DNA of 36,417 nucleotides from Bdellovibrio sp. (GTDB taxonomy: Bacteria > Bdellovibrionota > Bdellovibrionia > Bdellovibrionales > Bdellovibrionaceae), in the NCBI GenBank assembly GCA_013360185.1, contig JABWCO010000019.1, forward strand, positions 1 to 36,417, written 5' to 3'. Position numbers and translations under genes: made by a program. Position 1 is the first letter of the stretch. Each line of letters starts with the position of its first letter. Under the pieces are notes generated by a model. It saw only the letters and a list, made by a program, of their open reading frames with translations. It did no database searches and was not told the DNA's origin. Of the stretch, positions 3,386 to 31,899 are shown piece by piece.

Positions 3386-4063
3386 CTATTCTTGCACTTC
3401 AAGGCGATAACCCAATGATGGAACCGCAACAATGCGACCATTAAAGCTGTTAATCTTGCGCTTTAAATAATTAATCTGCGAATCCACGTTTCTGGAAGTG
3501 ACTTCAGTGTCTCCCCAGATTTCCGAAAGACATTTTTCGCGAGTGACCAGATTGTTTTTGCCTGCGACTAACAATTTTAAAATATCAAATTGCTTTGGCG
3601 TTAAGTTGACTTCTTCACCGCCAACGAAAACTTGGCGCGAAAGTAAATTCATACGCAGATTCGCCGCAGTTAACTCTGACGCCACTTCGGTGTCTTTTTC
3701 TGACAAACGCGCTTTGATTCTTAAGATCAATTCTTTTACATGGAATGGCTTAGAAATAAAATCGTCAGCTCCCGTTTCGAAAGCTTTAATTCTTTCATCG
3801 ATGGTTGCCGCGCCAGATACAAAAATAATCGGCGTACTGCGAGTGGCTTCGCTTTCGCGAACCATACGACAGACATCAACACCCATCACGCCTGGCATTT
3901 TATAGTCTAAAAGAATAAGATCTGGTTTTTTTTCGTTGATCAACTTCACTGCCGAGGAGCTATCCGAAGTATAGGAGCACTCATAAGTGGAGCTGAGAAT
4001 TTCCGCAAGCAGCTTACAGCTCTCTTCGTAATCATCAACGATCACAATTTTTTTTGCTGTCAA
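3386..4063 (-). CDS. OmpR/PhoB-type response regulator
   Basis: A two-domain transcriptional response regulator. With the TTG start at 4063 it has 225 residues: a receiver domain with acidic pair Asp10-Asp11, phosphoacceptor Asp53 (LLDYKMPG) and Lys105 (SKPF), followed by a winged-helix DNA-binding domain (about 130-225, motif EVNLTPKQFDILKLL). The TTG is preceded by AAGAGG at good spacing and puts the receiver strand at the N-terminus as usual. The frame is open further upstream (TTG at 4138, ATG at 4090) but those starts lack a ribosome site. No cognate kinase is adjacent; the nearest kinase is at 16977-18944. It lies downstream of the PrkA/YeaH/SpoVR/SUI1 genes on the same strand, so it may be co-transcribed. 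Its targets are unknown. Confidence 0.9.
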   Translation of the reverse strand: MTAKKIVIVDDYEESCKLLAEILSSTYECSYTSDSSSAVKLINEKKPDLILLDYKMPGVMGVDVCRMVRESEATRSTPIIFVSGAATIDERIKAFETGADDFISKPFHVKELILRIKARLSEKDTEVASELTAANLRMNLLSRQVFVGGEEVNLTPKQFDILKLLVAGKNNLVTREKCLSEIWGDTEVTSRNVDSQINYLKRKINSFNGRIVAVPSLGYRLEVQE

Positions 4064-4156
4064 ATCTGCACCTCTTAAAGAACTCGTCATAAACAGATTC
4101 ATATTTTGAAGCATCTCTTGATTGGGTCCAAAAAACAAGCCTGACGAAGTCCAGTT

Positions 4157-4519
4157 TTAGAAACCTTTATATTTTATGTTCTTTCCTTCAAGTATCTTCT
4201 TAAGAGCATCCCTCTTGTCACCTTGAATTTCAATGACCCCGCTCTTTTCCGTTAAAGCATGGGTTCCACCAACACCACATTTTGCCTTAAATTCTTTCGC
4301 CAACGTCTTGAGGTAGTCTTCATTTCGGGGAAAACCCTCCATCACCGTGACGATTTTGCCACCCCGTCCGCCTTTTTCTATGCGAAAGATCACCGTAAAC
4401 TGCCCTTCCTGCACGGTTTCTGTCGGACGGCACTTGCACTCTGCTTTAAGTTCGTGGCACTGAGGGCACTTGATATTATCTTTAGGGTCAGTACTATAAA
4501 CTAACCGAGTATTCTTCAT
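4157..4519 (-). CDS. yciH: SUI1/eIF1-family translation factor (YciH-like)
   Basis: A 120-residue protein with a cysteine-rich N-terminus (CPQC...CKC, residues about 19-31) and a SUI1/eIF1 fold from about residue 40, including the KGGRGGKIVTVMEGF signature and the C-terminal GVIEIQGDKRD strand. Bacterial YciH proteins resemble eukaryotic initiation factor eIF1 and are thought to influence initiation fidelity. Length is normal for the family. Its ATG overlaps the SpoVR TGA stop (ATGA, 4516-4519), so the two are translationally coupled. That link places an initiation factor in the PrkA/SpoVR stress module, which is an inference about shared use. Confidence 0.9.
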   Translation of the reverse strand: MKNTRLVYSTDPKDNIKCPQCHELKAECKCRPTETVQEGQFTVIFRIEKGGRGGKIVTVMEGFPRNEDYLKTLAKEFKAKCGVGGTHALTEKSGVIEIQGDKRDALKKILEGKNIKYKGF

Positions 4520-6042
4520 GATCCCGAGCTTTCCTGATTTGCTGGATTTGGACTTGGTTCTTCACCAAGCTTGTGTTGGGTATACTCCTTTCCATCAAAT
4601 CGAAAAAGCTGCGGAGCTCCATCCATAACAGTCGCTAAGTTCGCAGGGCGCTTCCAAATCTTGTAAACATTCTTCAAAGTTTCGCTCATAAAATCGGGCT
4701 GCATGTCGATACCTTCATGCAAATGAGTCAACAAAAGTTCCCCGCGATTTTCAAAGTTTGCGTCTTCAATACGAATGATTGGCTGACCAAAGTTTGTCAT
4801 ATGAAATAACAACTGCGTTTTGATCGCTTTAAAGTCCTTCGTATCCACTTCAAACTTATTGGTTTTTTTATTGAACTTATATACAAACATTTTATTTCGC
4901 ACACAAAAATCTTCAGTTAAAAACTGATCGATAAAAGTGACGTCATTGCAGACCTTACGAACTTCAAAAATTTTATCCCGTCCCAGACCCAGCTTACGAT
5001 CCCAGTGCTTTCTTTCGCGCACATCATCGCACTCTTCCCATTCGCGCCCGAACTGTCCTTTGTTCCAACGCTCTTCGATATCGCGCATCAGTTCGATACC
5101 CACTTTATAGGGATTGTAACCGTTCGGTGCCATCGCCATCGTACCACTGTGATGATCGGCGAAGTCGATGATTTCCGAATCATTCAGAATTTTTGTCGTC
5201 ATCAACTTAGAATGCCAATAAGACGCCCATCCCTCGTTCATGGTTTTGGTCATACCTTGTGGTGAAAAATAATATGCTTCATCACGAATAATCGTCAAAA
5301 CATCCTGCTGCCAGTCAGTCAAAGGCGCATGATGAATAAAGAAGTTCAAAATATCTTTTTCTGGTTCTGCGGGAAAACGCTGTGACTTTTCGAAAGCTTG
5401 GTCTTCCGCTTTTTTACGCTGTTCTTCAACGTATGCGGGAGGATTTATATAGTCACGCATGTATGACTTATCAACTCGCAATAAATAACTAGTATCTTCT
5501 TTCGCAGCCGCTGGGGATTTAGCCACAGACTTTTCCACATAGGGACTGTAACGGTCGATCAGATTTTCTAAACTTAAACACACGTCGATAAAATTTTCGA
5601 CGACGTCCTGGCCGTGGCGATCCATATAACGACGGATCCGCGTCGCATGATTTGCCATTTGGTCCATCATCTTACGATTGGTTTTTGAAAACCAAATGTT
5701 GTTCTTAAAAAAGTCACAGTGACCGTACACGTGGGCCATCACAAGCTTTTGGTCCATCATGGCGTTGCCTTCCATTAAATAGGCATAGCAGGGATCCGTG
5801 TTGATCACCATTTCGTAAATCTTCGAAAGACCGTATTCATAACTTTTAGAAAGATGTTCGTATTCCATACCGAACTTCCAGTGCGGGTAACGAACAGGAA
5901 AGCCCCCATAGGCGGCGAACTGGCTGATTTGATCGTACGTGATCAACTCAAAGACGGTTTCAAAAAAATCCAAGCCCGCGTCTTTCGCGATTTGGCAGAT
6001 TCTTTTTCTTTCGGCTTCTAATTCAGGCGTTAAGTTAGCCAT
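4516..6042 (-). CDS. spoVR: SpoVR family protein
   Basis: A 508-residue member of the SpoVR/YcgB family. Diagnostic stretches include the N-terminal FELITYDQISQFAAYGGFPVRYPHW region, the WKFGMEYEH segment, a His-rich MAHVYGHCDFFKNN motif near residue 105-118, and a central MNEGWASYWHSK motif near residue 265. SpoVR proteins are soluble and of unresolved biochemistry; in Bacillus they affect spore cortex formation and in enterobacteria they belong to a starvation-response set with YeaG and YeaH. The start has a good ribosome site (GGAG, 7 bases upstream). The gene follows yeaH after 49 bases and overlaps the SUI1 gene. Family identity is certain, function is not. Confidence 0.95.
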   Translation of the reverse strand: MANLTPELEAERKRICQIAKDAGLDFFETVFELITYDQISQFAAYGGFPVRYPHWKFGMEYEHLSKSYEYGLSKIYEMVINTDPCYAYLMEGNAMMDQKLVMAHVYGHCDFFKNNIWFSKTNRKMMDQMANHATRIRRYMDRHGQDVVENFIDVCLSLENLIDRYSPYVEKSVAKSPAAAKEDTSYLLRVDKSYMRDYINPPAYVEEQRKKAEDQAFEKSQRFPAEPEKDILNFFIHHAPLTDWQQDVLTIIRDEAYYFSPQGMTKTMNEGWASYWHSKLMTTKILNDSEIIDFADHHSGTMAMAPNGYNPYKVGIELMRDIEERWNKGQFGREWEECDDVRERKHWDRKLGLGRDKIFEVRKVCNDVTFIDQFLTEDFCVRNKMFVYKFNKKTNKFEVDTKDFKAIKTQLLFHMTNFGQPIIRIEDANFENRGELLLTHLHEGIDMQPDFMSETLKNVYKIWKRPANLATVMDGAPQLFRFDGKEYTQHKLGEEPSPNPANQESSGS

Positions 6043-6091
6043 TGATCACTCCATTGTTTCCGCAACGTAACCGCAAAGGTACGGCGTACCT

Positions 6092-7189
6092 CTATTTTCC
6101 TTTTCCTAGGAAGTCTTTGATAGAATCTAGTATTTTATCGCGATTTTCGATTTGGCTTAAGGTCAGACGTTCATCCCCGCCAAATTCTTTTTGCAAGTCC
6201 TTTAGGAACTGGCCGCTGCCATATTTACTTTCCACTTGGCCGTAACTAAAGACATTGCAATTCGGCAGAAAGAATTCATTCAAAAGTTTTACGCACAAAC
6301 GCGTGTCTTCTCCAGACCAATTGTCACCATCACTAAAATGGAAGGGATAAATATTCCATTCGTTAACGGGATAGTCGCTGGTGATAATTTCTTGGCAAAG
6401 TTTATAAGCGGAACTGATTAAAGTTCCGCCCGATTCACTGGTTCTAAAGAAGGTATCTTCATCGACTTCTTTCGCGGCAGCGTCATGGATAATAAAGCGA
6501 GTTTCTAACCCCTTATAATGTTTCTTTAACCATGTGTTGATCCAGAAGCTTTCAAGGCGCACGATTTCTTTTTGTTCGTCGCCCATACTGCCGGAAACGT
6601 CCATCATGTAAATAACCACCGCTTGTGTTTGCGGTTTCTCAACCTTCTTAAAGGACTTGTACTGCATGTCCCGACGGATCGGTAACACCAAAGGTTCTTC
6701 AGCATTATAGGTGCCTGAACCGACCATGCGTTTTAAAGCTCGCTTGTAAGAAGATTTAAAATGACGAAGTCCTTCCGGCCCGACGGGTGCTAAGCCTGTA
6801 AACTTCGTTTTTAAGGATTCAATATTTTTAGAACCTTTTGGTTCAATACGCGGAAGCTGCAGCTTTTCACCAAGGATGTCTGCGAGCTCATCCATAGAAA
6901 GTTCGACCTCTAGAAGATGCTCTCCCGGAGCTTCCCCAGCTTGACCTTGTCCGCCTTCACCAGGATCGCCGACTTCTTGACCGGGCTGACCCTCACCTTG
7001 ACCAACCCCGCCTTGTTGCTTAGGACCATAACGGAAATTCGGAATATCAATTCTTGGAAGTGGAATCTTGACGTATTCGTCTTCCCTCTTCCCGATCATT
7101 TCTCCTTGCGACACGTACTTTCTAAGGTCTTCTTTGACCTTGCCCTTTACGATGTCTTTGAATCTGTTATGGTCTTCGCGTATTGCCAT
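6092..7189 (-). CDS. yeaH: YeaH/YhbH (DUF444) von Willebrand A-like protein
   Basis: A 365-residue protein of the YeaH/YhbH family. A Gly/Gln/Glu-rich low-complexity stretch (residues about 58-90) precedes a von Willebrand factor A-like domain that begins near residue 188. The metal-ion site motif is Asp197-x-Ser199-x-Ser201 ([11 protein letters not shown]). YeaH is the constant partner of the PrkA/YeaG kinase and probably an adaptor or substrate, though its activity is unproven. The ATG overlaps the prkA TAA by one base (TAATG), which is strong evidence for coupled expression. Length is slightly shorter than E. coli YeaH. Family call is firm. Confidence 0.95.
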
Positions 7190-9264
7190 TATTTATTCTT
7201 TACGTCCCCTCGGGCGAAGATACTTGCTACGTAATGCAACACATCCGTGGCAGAGATTTCATCGTAACCGAAGTCTTTGATGAGACGGGTTTTAACAATA
7301 TCAATTTTTTCCTGCGTGTCTTTGTCAGCGACATTAGTTACTAAAGTCGTTAACTTGATACTGTCTTTTTGGTCTTCAAAAAGTTTCAATTCAATTGCTT
7401 TATGCAGGCGCTCGTTCATCTTGAAGTTGAACTTTTTGCCTTCTAAAGCCAAAGCCCCGATGTAATTCATGATCTCGCGACGGAAGTCATCTTTGCGCGA
7501 TTCAGGAATTTCGATCTTTTCTTCAATCGAACGCATTAAACGTTCATCCGGCTCCTCGTCGTTACCCGTGAATTGGTTGCGCACTTTTTCCCGTTGCGTG
7601 TACGCTTTCACATTATCGATATAGTTTGAGCACAAACGCTGCATCGCACTTTCGTCAGCACTGATCGCGCGTTGAACTTCGGCTTTGATGATTTCTTCAT
7701 ACTCTTGCATCACCACGCCTAAAAGTTCTTTGTATTCTGTTTTTAGCTCTTCATTAGCAATCAAAGAGTGATTTTTTAATCCCGACTCAAGCTCTTTAAA
7801 CACCATGAATGGATTCACAGACCCTTTATTGGATTGCTGTGCCGCCACCAAGGCATTTGAAAGTTTATCTTGGATGTAACGGGCTGAAATACCTTCCAAA
7901 CCTTCGCGGTTTGTTTCTTTACGCAGTTCACGCACGTTATCTTCGGTGTAATTCGCCAAAGTTTTACCGTTATACAATTTTAGTTTTTGCAAACGAGTTA
8001 AGTTGGCTTTCTTCGGTTTTTCTAAACGAGTTAGAAGCGCCCACATCGCGGCCATTTCAACTGTGTGCGGAGCAATACTGATCCCACGCACTTTTTGCGA
8101 ATTGAAATCACGCTTATAGATATTGATTTCATCTCTCCAGCGCGTGATGTACGGAATGTCGATTTTCACCGTACGGTCACGAAGCGCTTCCATGAATTCA
8201 TTGTCTTGCAGGCGACGGTACTCGGGCTCATTGGTATGACCGATGATCACTTCGTCGATATGTGTTTGTGCGAATTTTTTTGGTTTCACGCGATGTTCTT
8301 GTGACGCACCTAAAAGATCGTACAGGAAGGCCACGTCTAACTTAAGAACCTCGACGAATTCAATCATCCCGCGGTTGGCGACGTTAAATTCTCCGTCAAA
8401 GTTAAAGGCACGTGGATCGGAATCAGATCCGTACTCTGCAATCTTACGGTAATTGATATCACCAGTAAGCTCTGTCGAGTCCTGATTCTTTTCATCTTTT
8501 GGCTGGAAGGTTCCAATACCGATACGATCTGCTTCCGAGATGAACAATCTTTTCACACGCACGTGCGAAAGAACCTTCATCAAGTCACCGTCGTATTTTT
8601 CCATCAAAGCTTTAAAGATAAAGCGAGAAGGGGGACTTAATTCACCATCCACATTAACTCGGTAAGAACCTTCTTGGCCTTTGTTGATGGAATCAAAAAT
8701 CTGTTGGCGTAAGCCTTCAGGAATAAGCAACAAAGGTTCTTCATTCATTGGTGACGGGAAGGTTTTTACTTCCTTACCCAGCAATCCACCAAGCTCTTGC
8801 TTTTCATCAATCCACTCGAACGTGTAAAGAGCACCCTCTTTAGAGTGCGAGTATTTTTCCAAACCTTTTTTTAGCATGCGGCAGATTGTGGATTTCGCGC
8901 TTCCTACCGGTCCGTGAAGCAAGATCACACGTTTTTCTGTGCCGTATCCTAAGGCGGCAGCCTTAAGCACGTTTACCAACTTCATTAGTTGCACGTCTAA
9001 GCCAAAGACGGCGTCTTTGCCGTTGTTGTGCACATCATCGAAGAACTTATAACGAACGACTTCTTTTTTGAAATCGATATAAGTCTCTGTCCCTTCTTCG
9101 ACGATCATATCAAACATACGCTGATAAGCGTTGCGCGTGATTTTTGGGTTCTGTTTTACCAGATCCAAATACTCTGCGAAGGTGCCGCTCCAATGTTCTT
9201 TGGCAGCCGTGCCTGAATTTTGCCAGTTGATGACTAATGAATGAAGATCAATCTTAGAGGCCAT
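7189..9264 (-). CDS. prkA: PrkA/YeaG serine protein kinase
   Basis: A 691-residue PrkA family protein. An AAA+-like N-terminal domain carries Walker [10 protein letters not shown] (residues 118-126), and the C-terminal half is the PrkA kinase-like region. PrkA/YeaG proteins are cytoplasmic stress or starvation kinases, or AAA+ proteases by some reports. The start at 9264 is chosen because GGGGGAG lies just upstream of this ATG and the protein begins MASKIDLHS; the frame stays open to 9300 but without a ribosome site. It heads a tight run with yeaH and spoVR, the same order seen in Bacillus and E. coli relatives. It lies 81 bases downstream of a lipoprotein gene, so a shared promoter is possible. 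Confidence 0.95.
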
Positions 9265-9345
9265 AATCTCTCCCCCGAGGGTGTTTGGTGACACACACAC
9301 TTGACTATTAGATTATGCCTCAATACTAGACGGTTAACGAGGATT

Positions 9346-15161: not shown

Positions 15162-15761
15162 TTAAAGACCAATAGATTTCTTTTTAAAGGTTTTACGAAT
15201 TTGTTTTTGATCAGACCAAGTGATCATGCTTGATTTCAAGTTCGTCAAATTCAAAGTCAGTTTGTAATAGACTGATTTGTCTTTACCAACTTCCTGAACA
15301 ATTGAATCCAAACGCCCATTGATGATGAAATCGGCTCCGACTTGACCACCAGGGCCTTTTTTAGAGTCTTCTGCGACCATTCCAGAGTTTTGATAGTTGT
15401 ATTCATCAGAAATATCCTGACGAGCTTCTTTATCAATAAAGCCAACCTTACCTGATTTCATTAACTCTACGCGAATCATGTCCATGATGCTTTGAGTGTC
15501 GATATGTTCGCTTGTTTTATTTTGCAAGCCCGTCACCATGACCACAGGCATTTTTTTGGTGCCATTGATTGCTGGGGATACCATCAAGCTAGCAACAAGG
15601 TCTGCCACCGCTTTTTGCATGTCTGTTTCTGACCATTGATCATTCATAAGGTTTTCGCGATTTACATCGTCGTATTGACCTTTTACGAAAGCTTTAGGAC
15701 CGCAGCTAACAACTGCCAGAAGTGAAAGAGACAGGGCTGCTAAAGTAAGATTCTTTTTCAT
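15162..15761 (-). CDS. lpoB: LpoB-like penicillin-binding protein activator lipoprotein
   Basis: A 199-residue lipoprotein: signal peptide with lipobox VVSC (Cys20, Gly at +2), a short linker, then an alpha/beta domain (about 45-199). The domain contains PVVMVTGLQNKTSEHIDT and GADFIINGRLDSIVQEV, the LpoB/COG3417 pattern. In enterobacteria LpoB reaches from the outer membrane to activate the peptidoglycan synthase PBP1b. Here the linker is short, so the reach would be small. The gene has a clear promoter and an AGGAAGG ribosome site, and leads the COG3014-like gene. Family assignment is good; that it activates a PBP in this organism is inference. Confidence 0.85.
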   Translation of the reverse strand: MKKNLTLAALSLSLLAVVSCGPKAFVKGQYDDVNRENLMNDQWSETDMQKAVADLVASLMVSPAINGTKKMPVVMVTGLQNKTSEHIDTQSIMDMIRVELMKSGKVGFIDKEARQDISDEYNYQNSGMVAEDSKKGPGGQVGADFIINGRLDSIVQEVGKDKSVYYKLTLNLTNLKSSMITWSDQKQIRKTFKKKSIGL

Positions 15762-15900: not shown

Positions 15901-16308
15901 ATGGAAGTGTCCACAAGTCTGCAAGCCTATGAATGTCTGCACACGCAAATAAATCCCTTCGTTGAAGAAGTCTGGATTATTGCTCTTAATTCGCATTTAA
16001 AACTCATTAAAACAGAGATGATATTTCGCGGAACAGCAGACCATTGTCTAATTCATCCCCGCGACATCTTCCGTTTTCTGATTCTGTGCAACGCAAGTTC
16101 CTTCGTAATGGCCCACAACCACCCCAGCGGACAAGCACAACCCTCTGAACAAGACATTCTGATCACCCGTAAAATCAATCAACTAGCCAAGGTCTTTCAA
16201 ATTTCATTAAACGATCACATCGTCATGACATCGTCACAATACTTTAGCATGGCCGATCACGGATTTTTTAAACGCTGGAAAAAAAGCACGAACATTTTGA
16301 ATTACTGA
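15901..16308 (+). CDS. Short RadC/JAB-domain protein
   Basis: A 135-residue protein that is essentially one JAB/MPN metalloprotease-like domain of the RadC family. Metal-site motif: His72-x-His74-P-S-G...Pro81-Ser82-x-x-Asp85, with acidic Glu22/Glu23 as the possible catalytic partner. Usual RadC (UPF0758) proteins are about 220 residues and begin with a helix-hairpin-helix region, which is missing here. RadC-like proteins are linked by context to DNA repair and mobile elements, but their activity is unproven. The 3' end overlaps the convergent next gene by 7 bases. No neighbouring phage or integron gene is seen, so a recent transfer is not supported. Confidence 0.85.
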   Translation: MEVSTSLQAYECLHTQINPFVEEVWIIALNSHLKLIKTEMIFRGTADHCLIHPRDIFRFLILCNASSFVMAHNHPSGQAQPSEQDILITRKINQLAKVFQISLNDHIVMTSSQYFSMADHGFFKRWKKSTNILNY

Positions 16309-16976: not shown

Positions 16977-18944
16977 TTATTTGATTAGAGGTTGATCCTT
17001 ATCTTGGATCGGCGGGTAAACTGGAATGATCACAATGAACTCAGTCCCAACTCCCACCTCAGAACGCACTTGGATTTCGCCGCCGTGATTTTGGATGATG
17101 CCATAAGAGATACTAAGACCTAAGCCCGTGCCCTGCCCAACACCTTTCGTCGTGAAGAATGGATCAAAAATCTTTTCCAATGTTTCCGAAGAAATACCCT
17201 TACCGCTGTCTTGAATAGAAACTTGCACCCAACCCCGACGATCCTTCGAACCCTTGTAATCCTTCAGCGGAGTCGTAGAAATCCAAATATGCCCTGGCCC
17301 GTCTATCGCCTGCGCCGCATTCGAAAGGATATTCATAAAAACTTGATTGATCTGACTTGCATAGCAGTGAATCAGCGGAGTGGGTTCATACTGACGGTGA
17401 ATTTCCAATCGATTTTTGATTTCACCCTGTAAAAGATCTAACGTGGTATCTAAACTTTGCTGCACGTCGATCTCTTGCAACTTCGCCTCTTCCAGACGCG
17501 AGAAATTTCTTAAGCCCAAAACAATGTCGCGCGTGCGGCGAGCACCATCTTGGCAAGACGCTACAAGCTTAGGCAGATCTTTAACAATATAATCAAATTC
17601 GTATTCCTCTTTCAGAGCCGGCAAACGCTGCGGTTCTTTTTCTGCCGCTTCTGACAAAGCTATAAGCTTTTCCGAATAGTCCTTTAGGTGCGTCATGTTA
17701 CTATAAATAAAGCCAATGGGATTATTCAGCTCGTGCGCAACACCGGCGACAAGCTGACCTAAGCTGACCATTTTTGCCGAGTGCACAAGTTTAGTTTGCG
17801 TGTCCTTAAGTTCTTTGTTCGCGTCTTGAAGCTCAGTGATCTTCTTTCTTAAATCGGATCTTGCCTGCCAGATTTTTTTACTCATTTCATTGAAGGATTC
17901 TGTTAGCAAGCCGATCTCAGTGTCATTTTTGACTGGGATTGTGACCGCTTGCTCTTGTGATTCAAACGACTGCAAAGCCTCAACCAAGTCGTACAGGGGT
18001 TTTAAGACCCAATTTGAAGTAACTAAAATTGTTATAATCAAAAGTACGATCACCGCACCCACGACAGTGATAAATGCATAGTTCACATTTTTTAGTACGG
18101 CTTTCGCTTCACTCTTTGACGCTCCCAAGGCGACATAGAATTTCGTCAAGCCCCAATCAATCGGGTAGATCAAAAAACCATACGGAGTTGTGCGCACATT
18201 TAAATCAAAAAAACGTTCCGCACCATTACGAAAATTCGACGCGAAAAAATCTTTTTTATAAAGATAAAAGTCAGGATGGCTGGCGACGACCACTTGCCCC
18301 CCCTCTTTAAAAACGATCAATTCAAGTTTTAATCTGTTTTTTAGTTTCCCGACGAAGGCTTTGTTCAGGTCGACAATCTGCTCGACGTAACCAATTAAAC
18401 GGCCTCCGCCCGCCGTAACTCTTGAAATCAAAATCAAATTAACTTTTTGCGTTTCCGTGAATTCCGCTAAGGCGACTTCTTTTTGACCCTTCATCTCGGC
18501 CATATACTTAGCAGATAAAAAAACTGCATCTTGTACTGGAACGAAGCTTCGCACGGCCTCTTTGTCGTCCTTAAACACAGACGCTAGCATTCTGCCCTCG
18601 CGGTCAAAGAATGTCAGACTGGAAACATTGTCAGATTTTACCCACTGAGAGGTCAAACTGCGGATCGTAGAACCGTCACCGATAGCCATGTGGTAAAGCA
18701 AGCTTGGGTCGCGAACATATTTGTCTCTTTTTTGCTGTAGACCAATGCGTAAGTCCGCCAGAGCCACGTCGATTTCCCGCGCGTTACCCGTCAAACGCTG
18801 CGATAGCTCATAGTCGATGGCCTTTTCGTATTTGATCATCGAGTAAACTGTCACGAATGCAAGTGGGATAACGCTGAACAGAACAAACCATACGATCAGA
18901 ATCGTGCGTAAAGATCGCTTAGGTTTCTTCCGTAGAGTTTTCAC
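16977..18944 (-). CDS. Membrane sensor histidine kinase
   Basis: A 655-residue kinase: TM1 about 13-36; extracytoplasmic sensor domain about 37-285, likely Cache-like; TM2 about 288-309; HAMP about 310-362; coiled coil; dimerisation domain with phosphoacceptor His404 ([13 protein letters not shown]); ATP-binding domain with DSGKGIS and GTGLGLS. The HELNNPxG wording places it in the NtrB/HisKA subgroup common in delta-type bacteria. It starts at GTG and follows the anti-sigma-like gene by only 4 bases, so it is part of that operon. No response regulator is adjacent; the nearest is at 3386. Its signal is unknown. Confidence 0.95.
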
Positions 18945-18948
18945 TTAA

Positions 18949-19965
18949 TCACTTCTTTGCTTCATCCAAAGTGATGATCAGACGAACGATACCGTCAGGC
19001 ATTATGCGGGGATGTTTTTCTTTGGCAATTTTGGGTTTTCCGTAAGTGCCCAAAAAGTTAAGAAGATCCTGGTATTTTGCTTCGGGAATGGTGAAGTGAT
19101 AATACATCGAAGTGGGTGTCTTTTGCCAACCCAGCTCCACCGACCCCGCCTTACGGCCACCAAGTTCTGCAATCTTATCCGTGATCTTTGGACCAATCAC
19201 CGCAATGTTGGTCACCGCAATGTCGCCGCGATAAAGGAATCCCCCACCAACACCCACCACAGAAGCGGCGGTTGTACCTGACGTCTCTGCCAGCGGAGCT
19301 TTATCAGATAATTTTACAGGTGCCTGCGCAGAAGCCCCCGGCGTTTGCGGCCCTGGTTTCGGCGGAACACCTTGGACCACTTGCACTTCAGGATTCTTGC
19401 CAGTGACGGCAGGTTGGTGCGTGGCCGCCACTTTCGCCGTGGTTGTTGAAGGCTTTTCTTCTTCATCAGCAAATTCGGGCTTATCTTCCACCGCCGGTAT
19501 GGCCGTTGTTTCTCCGTTTTTAGAAACTTCCGCTAGGATCACTTCTTTTGATCCGGCCGTATCAAGCTCCATGATTTTTTGCCAAGGTGTGATCGTTAAA
19601 ACTGTCACAATCCCTACGACGACGACCAAAGCTTCAAGTCCCCACTTCAGTCCTTGCGGCCACTTATCAAAATTTGATTTCTGCAAAAGTACGGACAGAT
19701 AATTTGAGGGCGCATTAATTTGCGTAATAATCGGCTGTGACACCACTGTCGCAGAAAGCCTTTCTGCATAGGTTTGGCCGTTTTGAATTTTAGCTAAATC
19801 TAACTGTGCATCACGGGAAAACTTCACATGATCTTCAACGGCTGCGCGACGTTCTTTATCCAAGCTCCCAGACAAATAGTCATAAAGAAGCTCATGCCCG
19901 ATAAAGGGAGAAATTTCGCGTTTACCTTTTTTAGAGAGAGGAATCTTACTTTCCTGTTGCGCCAT
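18949..19965 (-). CDS. Anti-sigma-like membrane protein
   Basis: A 338-residue single-pass protein. Residues about 19-60 (FIGHELLYDYLSGSLDKERRAAVEDHV) match the start of zinc-finger anti-sigma factors, but the HxxxCxxC cysteines are absent, so any sigma binding would be zinc-independent. One hydrophobic segment is near residues 107-127. A long Pro/Thr/Ala/Val-rich linker follows, then a C-terminal domain (about 230-338, YRGDIAVTNIAVIGPKI and LGWQKTPTSMYYHF). The ATG lies inside the end of the sigma-like gene (20-base overlap), the usual layout of a sigma/anti-sigma pair. The histidine kinase is 4 bases downstream. The anti-sigma role is inference from architecture and position. Confidence 0.7.
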   Translation of the reverse strand: MAQQESKIPLSKKGKREISPFIGHELLYDYLSGSLDKERRAAVEDHVKFSRDAQLDLAKIQNGQTYAERLSATVVSQPIITQINAPSNYLSVLLQKSNFDKWPQGLKWGLEALVVVVGIVTVLTITPWQKIMELDTAGSKEVILAEVSKNGETTAIPAVEDKPEFADEEEKPSTTTAKVAATHQPAVTGKNPEVQVVQGVPPKPGPQTPGASAQAPVKLSDKAPLAETSGTTAASVVGVGGGFLYRGDIAVTNIAVIGPKITDKIAELGGRKAGSVELGWQKTPTSMYYHFTIPEAKYQDLLNFLGTYGKPKIAKEKHPRIMPDGIVRLIITLDEAKK

Positions 19966-20416
19966 GCTTTAGCTTACCCACATTTTGGGTCATACTGCCC
20001 AATTTACGAAGTGCTCGTCCCAAACGATAACGAATAGTTCCTTGAGTTATGCCTAAGCCTTCAGAAATATCGTCGTCTTCCATTTTCAAAATTTTAGACC
20101 AGATCACTGTTAACAGCTCGTCTTCAGACGCTGTCTTTTGAAACTCACGCCATGGTCCTAAGTCAAATCCCTCGGGAATTAACCAACCGGATTCTACGGA
20201 TGTGTTGGGGCGACCACGGGAAACACGGGACTTATATTTATCCCACGTCACTTTGGTGGCAGAAACAATTGCGACAGAATTTTTTAACTGGGGATTTTTT
20301 TGCTTTCGCACCCGACCAAGGGCCAGTGCCTGGGTTGCAGCCTCTACGGCTTTTTGATCATCAAGAAAAGCAAAGTAAAAAAACAGAGCGATAGATTGTA
20401 CGTCGGCCTCAGTCAT
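19946..20416 (-). CDS. Divergent ECF-sigma-like regulator
   Basis: A 156-residue protein from ATG 20416, which has AAGGTG upstream; a TTG at 20443 is the alternative. The C-terminal half has a region 4-like helix-turn-helix (DDDISEGLGITQGTIRYRLGRALRKLG, about 108-134). The N-terminal half has helices that could be a strongly altered region 2 (ALFFYFAFLDDQKAVEAATQA), but no clear -10-binding motif. Normal ECF sigma factors are 170-200 residues, so this is short and divergent. It could be a true sigma factor, or a DNA-binding regulator derived from one. It overlaps the anti-sigma-like gene by 20 bases. Confidence 0.7.
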   Translation of the reverse strand: MTEADVQSIALFFYFAFLDDQKAVEAATQALALGRVRKQKNPQLKNSVAIVSATKVTWDKYKSRVSRGRPNTSVESGWLIPEGFDLGPWREFQKTASEDELLTVIWSKILKMEDDDISEGLGITQGTIRYRLGRALRKLGSMTQNVGKLKHGATGK

Positions 20417-20482
20417 TGACACCTTTTGGTTAAGGTTGCTCAAAAAAACTTCAAAGCTGTTTTCTTAAGCCACCCTTAAATA

Positions 20483-21578
<1,096 letters not shown>

Positions 21579-21603
21579 TGCAGATATTTAGACTAATTTT
21601 CCG

Positions 21604-31720: not shown

Positions 31721-31899
31721 ATAGAGGTTCGACGGCGTAAAGCTCATCGAAATTAAACCTTACAAGCATATTTTTGGGGACTGTCCCTGACAATGGTGTG
31801 CAAGCTCAGCTCGTACTGAGAAGCCTGAAGTTGTTATAATGGTCGCCCACCTTAGCTAAAACAGGTTTATGTTTCAGAGTGGCCATCGAGCCTTTTTTT
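31721..31899 (+). ncRNA. ssrS: 6S RNA candidate
   Basis: About 179 bases that fold into one long interrupted hairpin, the 6S shape. Pairings: GGTTCGA (31726-31732) with TCGAGCC (31886-31892), closing and followed by a T-run; AAACCT (31755-31760) with AGGTTT (31863-31868); a large open bubble; GGGGAC (31776-31781) with GTCGCCC (31842-31848); TGACAA (31788-31793) with TTGTTA (31831-31836); apical CTCAG (31805-31809) with CTGAG (31816-31820). The apical stem is followed by GAGAAGCCTGAA, close to the GAGAAGCCTTAA I recall in E. coli 6S, and GGTGTGCAAGCTC resembles its other side. 6S RNA mimics an open promoter and traps sigma-70 polymerase in stationary or nutrient-limited cells. It has its own promoter and terminator-like end. 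Confidence 0.8.

Follow-up and report, generated by a model that had tools for sequence, protein, structure and literature searches.

The window analysed here is a stretch of 36,417 nucleotides from Bdellovibrio sp. (contig JABWCO010000019.1), and this report concerns the genes that follow mreB on its minus strand. They encode a short sigma-like protein and a membrane protein with an anti-sigma-like N-terminus, for which the names sigL and asf were coined in this analysis, and a histidine kinase (HK). The original prediction described overlapping sigma-like and membrane anti-sigma-like genes with a kinase 4 bases on and mreB upstream, and a check of the open reading frames (ORFs) found every coordinate right. 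The overlap of sigL and asf is 20 bases, and HK starts 4 bases past the end of asf. The sigL frame runs from an ATG at 20416 to 19946, and the open frame reaches further to a TTG at 20443. The features of the locus are as follows.

21549..21591, minus strand: conserved promoter-like element of the mreB operon, TTGACT-N17-TAGACT with upstream CTAAATATC (comparison across relatives)
20483..21550, minus strand: ORF of mreB, likely ATG at 21526 (Pfam MreB_Mbl, E 6.4e-153; NCBIfam MreB)
19946..20416, minus strand: sigL, sigma-like protein of 156 amino acids (aa) (ORFs, Pfam, relatives, model)
20225..20410, minus strand: sigL residues 3-64, sigma2-like three-helix part without the polymerase-binding signature of region 2.2 (model helices 3-17, 20-40 and 46-64; SigW fold match; residue counts)
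19985..20158, minus strand: sigL residues 87-144, sigma4 with helix-turn-helix and recognition residues G126, T127, R129 and R131 (Pfam, model, residue counts)
18949..19965, minus strand: asf, single-pass membrane protein of 338 aa with anti-sigma-like N-terminus (ORFs, Pfam, relatives, model)
19657..19917, minus strand: asf residues 17-103, anti-sigma-like helical domain without Hx3Cx2C (VIA-align; zf-HC2, E 8e-4)
19591..19656, minus strand: asf residues 104-125, predicted membrane helix (hydrophobic helix in sequence and model, not a topology predictor)
18961..19242, minus strand: asf residues 242-335, presumed periplasmic ferredoxin-like domain, the best-conserved part of asf (invariant residues; pLDDT 92-98 in blocks of 241-338)
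16977..18944, minus strand: HK, membrane histidine kinase of 655 aa with Cache-like sensor region, HAMP, HisKA and HATPase_c, without an adjoining regulator gene (Pfam, NCBIfam)

The gene order is strongly conserved. In 38 of the 40 fetched Bdellovibrionales loci mreB is followed by sigL and asf, and in the other two by a single fused ORF; asf is therefore encoded with a sigma-like partner in all 40, and the linkage of the pair to mreB, already suspected from the window, extends to every one of them. Because Sigma70_r4_2 was also matched in 28 of 39 sigL relatives, and because 55 of 59 relatives have asf and 105 of the 143 genomes in the class have sigL, chance can be excluded as the source of this arrangement. 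A scan of named records with two short patterns returned 37 loci, one of which is B. bacteriovorus kdesi. Most titles were Bdellovibrio, Bdellovibrionaceae, Pseudobdellovibrionaceae or Bdellovibrionales/Bdellovibrionia, and some were broader (Deltaproteobacteria, Proteobacteria, Oligoflexia); since only two short patterns were used, distant relatives may exist elsewhere. The sigL-asf pair is thus old and conserved beside mreB in Bdellovibrio-type predatory bacteria. Two records that bear a Bdellovibrionales asf are titled Streptomyces griseus and Natrialbaceae archaeon (L253 and L263), and are probably misnamed metagenome bins.

A literature search of partial coverage found no paper on the sigL-asf pair. 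We take bd0211 to be mreB1. The 2012 survey of HD100 sigma factors, in the portion covered here, gives six genes, none of them an mreB neighbour, and describes group IV sigma genes without a downstream anti-sigma gene (PMC3464611). On the basis of that portion, the pair is previously unlisted.

Against Pfam, sigL matched Sigma70_r4 and Sigma70_r4_2 weakly (E 3e-4 to 5e-4, below the Pfam cut-off). Its AlphaFold model (mean pLDDT 90.9) has three N-terminal helices, four helices in the sigma4 part and a short last helix, and is closest to SigW bound to RsiW (Z 14.8, rmsd 2.1, 129 residues, within residues 1-146), followed by RpoE-NepR (Z 14.4) and CnrH-CnrY (Z 13.7). Furthermore, an hhalign comparison with 26 sigma and sigma-like sequences from the phylum gave the sigL family a probability of 97%, and the alignment spans both domains. 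The region 2 remnant that had been proposed for the 156-residue protein exists as a fold, completing a sigma2-sigma4 arrangement in the model; as a Pfam domain it did not hold, Sigma70_r2 being matched in 0 of 39 sigL members.

The part of sigL predicted to read DNA is under constraint. Distinct separate sequences numbered 105, after near-identical ones (same last 120 residues) were merged and sequences with a profile E of at least 1e-4 and outgroup loci were dropped. Among these, G126 is kept in 102, T127 in 96, R129 in 87 and R131 in 104, and the only split sigL without R131 (L119) is the sister of a fusion, as described below. In our mapping these residues are the equivalents of G168, T169, R171 and R173 of E. 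coli RpoE, which, according to Table 1 of PMC3464611, read the -35 element.

In the asf model, residues 20-96 form a helical domain and 104-125 a membrane helix; a disordered stretch then leads to the ferredoxin-like C-terminal domain at 242-335. The zf-HC2 match was weak (E 8e-4), and a Foldseek search with the asf model gave no match under E 0.001. However, when residues 17-103 were compared by VIA-align, the four best rows were all anti-sigma domains (MucA Z 6.7 with 2.1 A over 55 residues, RsiW 6.2, MucA 6.2 and RslA 5.8). Together with the sigL fold and the linkage, these matches bear out the proposal of a sigma-like/anti-sigma-like pair. The anti-sigma-type N-terminus was rightly described as lacking zinc cysteines, Hx3Cx2C being absent from the asf of the window. 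The motif was found in 3 of 111 distinct asf of the class, all in family f11 (3/3), and in several asf-related proteins outside the class. According to the portion of a large survey covered here, about 44% of class I anti-sigma domains have no zinc motif (PMC7406223). Because of this proportion, and because the outgroup family f11 keeps the motif, the missing cysteines are not telling; their absence is derived within the class and ordinary. The C-terminal domain has no Pfam name at cut-off; DUF4349 was matched weakly in 1 of 39 members (E 0.0083). It resembles XcpY, PulL and PulM of type II secretion and ribosomal S6 (mostly Z 5.0-5.7), a fold so common that it says little on function.

The two proteins probably touch each other, as we infer from the gene overlap, from natural fusions and from covariation. 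In the genus g3, of which the class sample holds 14 genomes with 10 loci examined, sigL and asf form one chain in nine loci, and the tenth (G076) lost the gene; the fused N-terminus is homologous to sigL at 96% probability. A second fused lineage is g11 (L069). In a tree of four neighbouring proteins, with weak internal support, L069 groups with the split L119, apart from g3; therefore the fusion likely arose twice. For covariation, the 105 sigL sequences were used, two of them without an asf partner in the stretch examined. The mean was 0.155 against 0.123 in 20 shuffles, and 20 of the top 40 covarying column pairs join sigma2 or the linker with asf helix 4, where 7.8 are expected. This is the interface described for class I anti-sigma factors in the portion of PMC7406223 covered here, and the agreement is suggestive.

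The balance of the evidence tips slightly towards sigL-asf being a membrane switch of the sigma/anti-sigma type that forms part of the mreB operon, with HK acting in parallel through a regulator encoded elsewhere. Asf would cross the inner membrane once, and its cytoplasmic helical domain would hold sigL at the membrane while the conserved periplasmic domain reports envelope state. A signal would then lead to cleavage or a shape change of asf, and sigL, once freed, would bind -35-like DNA through sigma4. HK would be a neighbour of mreB working beside this switch.

Several observations weigh against the switch. The VIA-align scores of asf are modest, all below 8, and the covariation signal may include effects of phylogeny and gaps. 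The absence of Sigma70_r2 matches noted above belongs here too, as does the composition of region 2.2, the stretch that binds polymerase in sigma factors. The Gln of this region is present in 22 of 22 extracytoplasmic function (ECF) sigma controls and in only 7 of 105 sigL, in a register that rests on a profile alignment of 8% identity (a shift of one column gives Gln in 27 of 105 and leaves the conclusion unchanged). The residue after it is acidic in 21 of 22 controls, whereas in sigL it is acidic in 9 of 105 and Lys or Arg in 52 of 105. Column counts were used for these scores, since a stricter regular expression matched 1 of 28 control loci. The controls came from the relatives via Sigma70_r2; the outgroup pairs L237-L240 were excluded and are shown apart, the Gln being missing in all four of them. 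Since the polymerase-binding signature is gone, sigL is not filed as an ECF sigma factor, and, judging from these residues, it would work like one at most in part.

With a sigma2 that has retained its fold but not the usual polymerase-binding residues, sigL is either a very divergent sigma factor or a sigma-derived regulator, and of the two a sigma-derived DNA-binding regulator seems more likely. That sigL is a fully working, divergent ECF sigma factor recruiting RNA polymerase as usual would agree with the complete sigma2-sigma4 fold and with the conserved -35 residues. However, the core-binding signature is lost or reversed, and Sigma70_r2 found the 22 ECF controls whereas it found no sigL member; we regard this explanation as rather unlikely. 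The same loss of the signature would suit sigma mimicry of the kind known from the sigma-like domain of PhyR, in which sigL would be unable to start transcription and would compete with a true ECF sigma factor for an anti-sigma. PhyR sigma-like domains were also among the best fold matches (Z 12.2, 11.9 and 11.2), and the published mimicry system uses a kinase (PMC8999054, portion covered here). However, no receiver domain was matched in sigL, whose 156 aa are all assigned to the sigma2-like part and sigma4. Furthermore, sigL is paired with an anti-sigma of its own instead of competing for that of another, and a pure decoy would not need the conserved -35 residues. We therefore consider mimicry highly improbable.

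The fusions bear on the switch in another way. In the fused proteins R131 and T127 are lost in 10 of 10 and G126 in 9 of 10, whereas W89 is kept in 10 of 10, and the fused form can apparently no longer read DNA. Since fusions survive although their recognition helix is gone, the complex may act independently of DNA in those lineages, a further point against the proposed switch. These sequences raise the alternative that the pair belongs structurally to the elongation machinery and anchors MreB to the membrane in the manner of RodZ, the sigma fold serving only as a protein-protein module. RodZ is likewise linked to MreB and likewise has a cytoplasmic helix-turn-helix, a membrane helix and a periplasmic domain; furthermore, the pair adjoins mreB in 40 of 40 loci, LpoB is encoded nearby, and all ten fused forms combine the loss of R131 with the retention of W89. 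However, the near invariance of the -35 residues in separate sigL is unexpected for a pure scaffold, and related fused proteins in other classes of the phylum have no mreB match within the fetched loci. SigL also belongs to a different fold family from RodZ, with no match to HTH_25 at E up to 1, and RodZ-type HTH_25 proteins coexist with the pair in the same genomes (58 of 58 relatives). On these grounds the scaffold is unlikely.

A bolder version of the sigma-derived regulator is possible, although we regard it as doubtful. SigL may have given up RNA polymerase altogether and become a DNA-binding regulator of the cell-shape operon, derived from a sigma factor and tethered to the membrane; two lineages may then have merged it with its anti-sigma and lost DNA reading as well, ending with a one-piece membrane sensor or scaffold beside MreB. 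If this is true, the full path from a sigma factor to an envelope protein could be read in living relatives.

The last point that weighs against the switch comes from the promoter-like element before mreB (21549-21591, minus strand), which carries TTGACT-N17-TAGACT and CTAAATATCnGnA. Of 24 genomes of the genus, 22 carry the 18-base core exactly, each with one exact copy, and in the g3 fusion loci the element is kept with one to three mismatches in 5 of 5. Because it persists in these fusions, sigL binding does not account for the element. Away from close relatives it becomes indistinct, and many loci have five to eight mismatches, no better than shuffles (four to six). Autoregulation by sigL through this element was considered and rejected, since the element is kept in all five g3 fusions, in which the recognition helix is eroded.

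In 38 of 40 loci the gene after asf or the fusion is HK; L060 has no HK match and in L070 the contig ends. The H, N and G boxes of the kinase are intact, and H404, N538, N542, D579, G581, G583, G605, G607 and G609 are invariant in 31 of 31. HK had been described as an orphan, and this was upheld: no response regulator adjoins it, and with the OmpR-type regulator of the window as query, matches were found near 2 of 38 HK loci, neither adjacent. In L040, the match adjoins another kinase-like ORF on the opposite strand. The OmpR-type response regulator of the window itself lies at 3386-4138 (minus strand), 12.8 kb from HK.

Natural gene losses separate HK from the pair. Four genomes from three lineages (L311, L312, L315 and L320) have neither sigL nor asf, and in them HK is the next gene after mreB, at a gap of 4 to 11 bases. 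In some small genomes, asf is shortened to the anti-sigma part and the membrane helix (L308 6720-7121, L309 6737-7057, L310 4052-4408 and L314 6587-6922). In the first three of these, sigL is kept, asf has 106-133 aa and ends after the membrane helix, and no HK was seen; in L314, asf has 111 aa and the kinase is diverged. Outside this comparison of neighbourhoods lie other pair-lacking genomes with an mreB match (G101, G108, G111, G127, G129 and G130), and G041, which is broken across contigs. From these losses it follows that sigL and asf travel together, while HK is separable and follows mreB. The original prediction allowed the kinase to act on the anti-sigma or in parallel to it; since HK and the pair can be separated by deletion, the first possibility is not supported and the second fits better.

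A stronger form of the first possibility is that HK is the dedicated sensor of the pair, which would phosphorylate or pull on asf (or sigL), free sigL and so replace a response regulator. The position of HK 4 bases after asf and its recurrence next to asf or the fused gene (38 of 40 loci) would agree with this, as would the truncation of asf after the membrane helix in the three genomes without HK (L308-L310). However, those same three genomes keep sigL and asf without HK, the four loci named above keep HK beside mreB without the pair, and no receiver domain was matched in sigL or asf. A dedicated sensor therefore seems improbable, and a switch with HK in parallel is preferred.

Among known systems, ECF sigma factors with class I anti-sigma factors (RpoE-RseA, SigW-RsiW and AlgU-MucA) resemble sigL-asf in the overlapping gene pair, the sigma2-sigma4 fold and the single-pass membrane anti-sigma with a cytoplasmic helical domain and a periplasmic part. 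They differ in that sigL has no region 2.2 signature, that the pair keeps a fixed place behind mreB, and that the periplasmic part of asf is a conserved ferredoxin-like domain without a Pfam name at cut-off. PhyR-NepR-EcfG with its histidine kinase likewise combines an anti-sigma and a nearby kinase with a sigma-like domain in which a normal sigma2 is lacking, but a receiver domain is absent from sigL, asf lies in the membrane, and no second sigma partner is known. Fusions of sigma and anti-sigma factors and PhyR mimicry are already known (PMC8999054 and PMC8103513, portions covered here). ECF48, ECF52, ECF53 and IutY carry a sigma factor and a membrane anti-sigma in one chain (PMC8999054, same portion), and share the domain order of the g3 and g11 fusions; however, their sigma part is active or expected to be active after proteolysis, whereas the fused sigma4 of g3 and g11 has lost the -35 residues. 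The natural fusions of g3 and g11 offer a rare test of the role of a sigma-type protein that no longer reads DNA. Inside its prey Bdellovibrio elongates into a filament before dividing at many sites simultaneously, and thus control of the elongation machinery is central to predation. An order-wide pair locked behind mreB is a concrete candidate, open to testing, for a link between the state of the envelope and gene control.

More distant relatives in the phylum contain parts of this system. L111 (1416-2891) encodes one chain of a sigma4-like part, an Hx3Cx2C anti-sigma part, a membrane helix and the asf C-terminal domain; its N-terminus aligned with sigL at 83% probability and matched Sigma70_r4_2 (4.5e-5). 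This chain is possibly an ancestral fused form. L124 aligned with sigL at 68% probability, and L112-L114 at only 1-2%. L105-L110, from another family of the phylum (f18), encode membrane proteins of 409-468 aa in which the C-terminal domain of asf recurs (E 1e-12 to 8e-7), and none has mreB nearby. The probability for an alignment of their N-termini to sigL was only 0.2%, with no detectable sigma homology, and they were not counted as sigL fusions. A thiolase-like gene (by eye) adjoins the f18 protein in L105, L106 and L107, of five loci listed. The pairs L237-L240, from other families of the phylum, consist of a sigma-like protein of 188-192 aa and an anti-sigma-like protein of 180-184 aa.

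Near the operon, the window contains a gene for an LpoB-like activator of peptidoglycan synthases (15162-15761, minus strand), the position of which is kept in many relatives. A RadC-like JAB-domain gene of 135 aa on the opposite strand (15901-16308, plus strand) lies between HK and lpoB in many relatives. Elsewhere in the window, SpoVR, DUF444 and PrkA kinase genes form one block (4516-9300, minus strand), and a 6S RNA gene was found at 31721-31898 (plus strand; Rfam RF00013, 74.5 bits).

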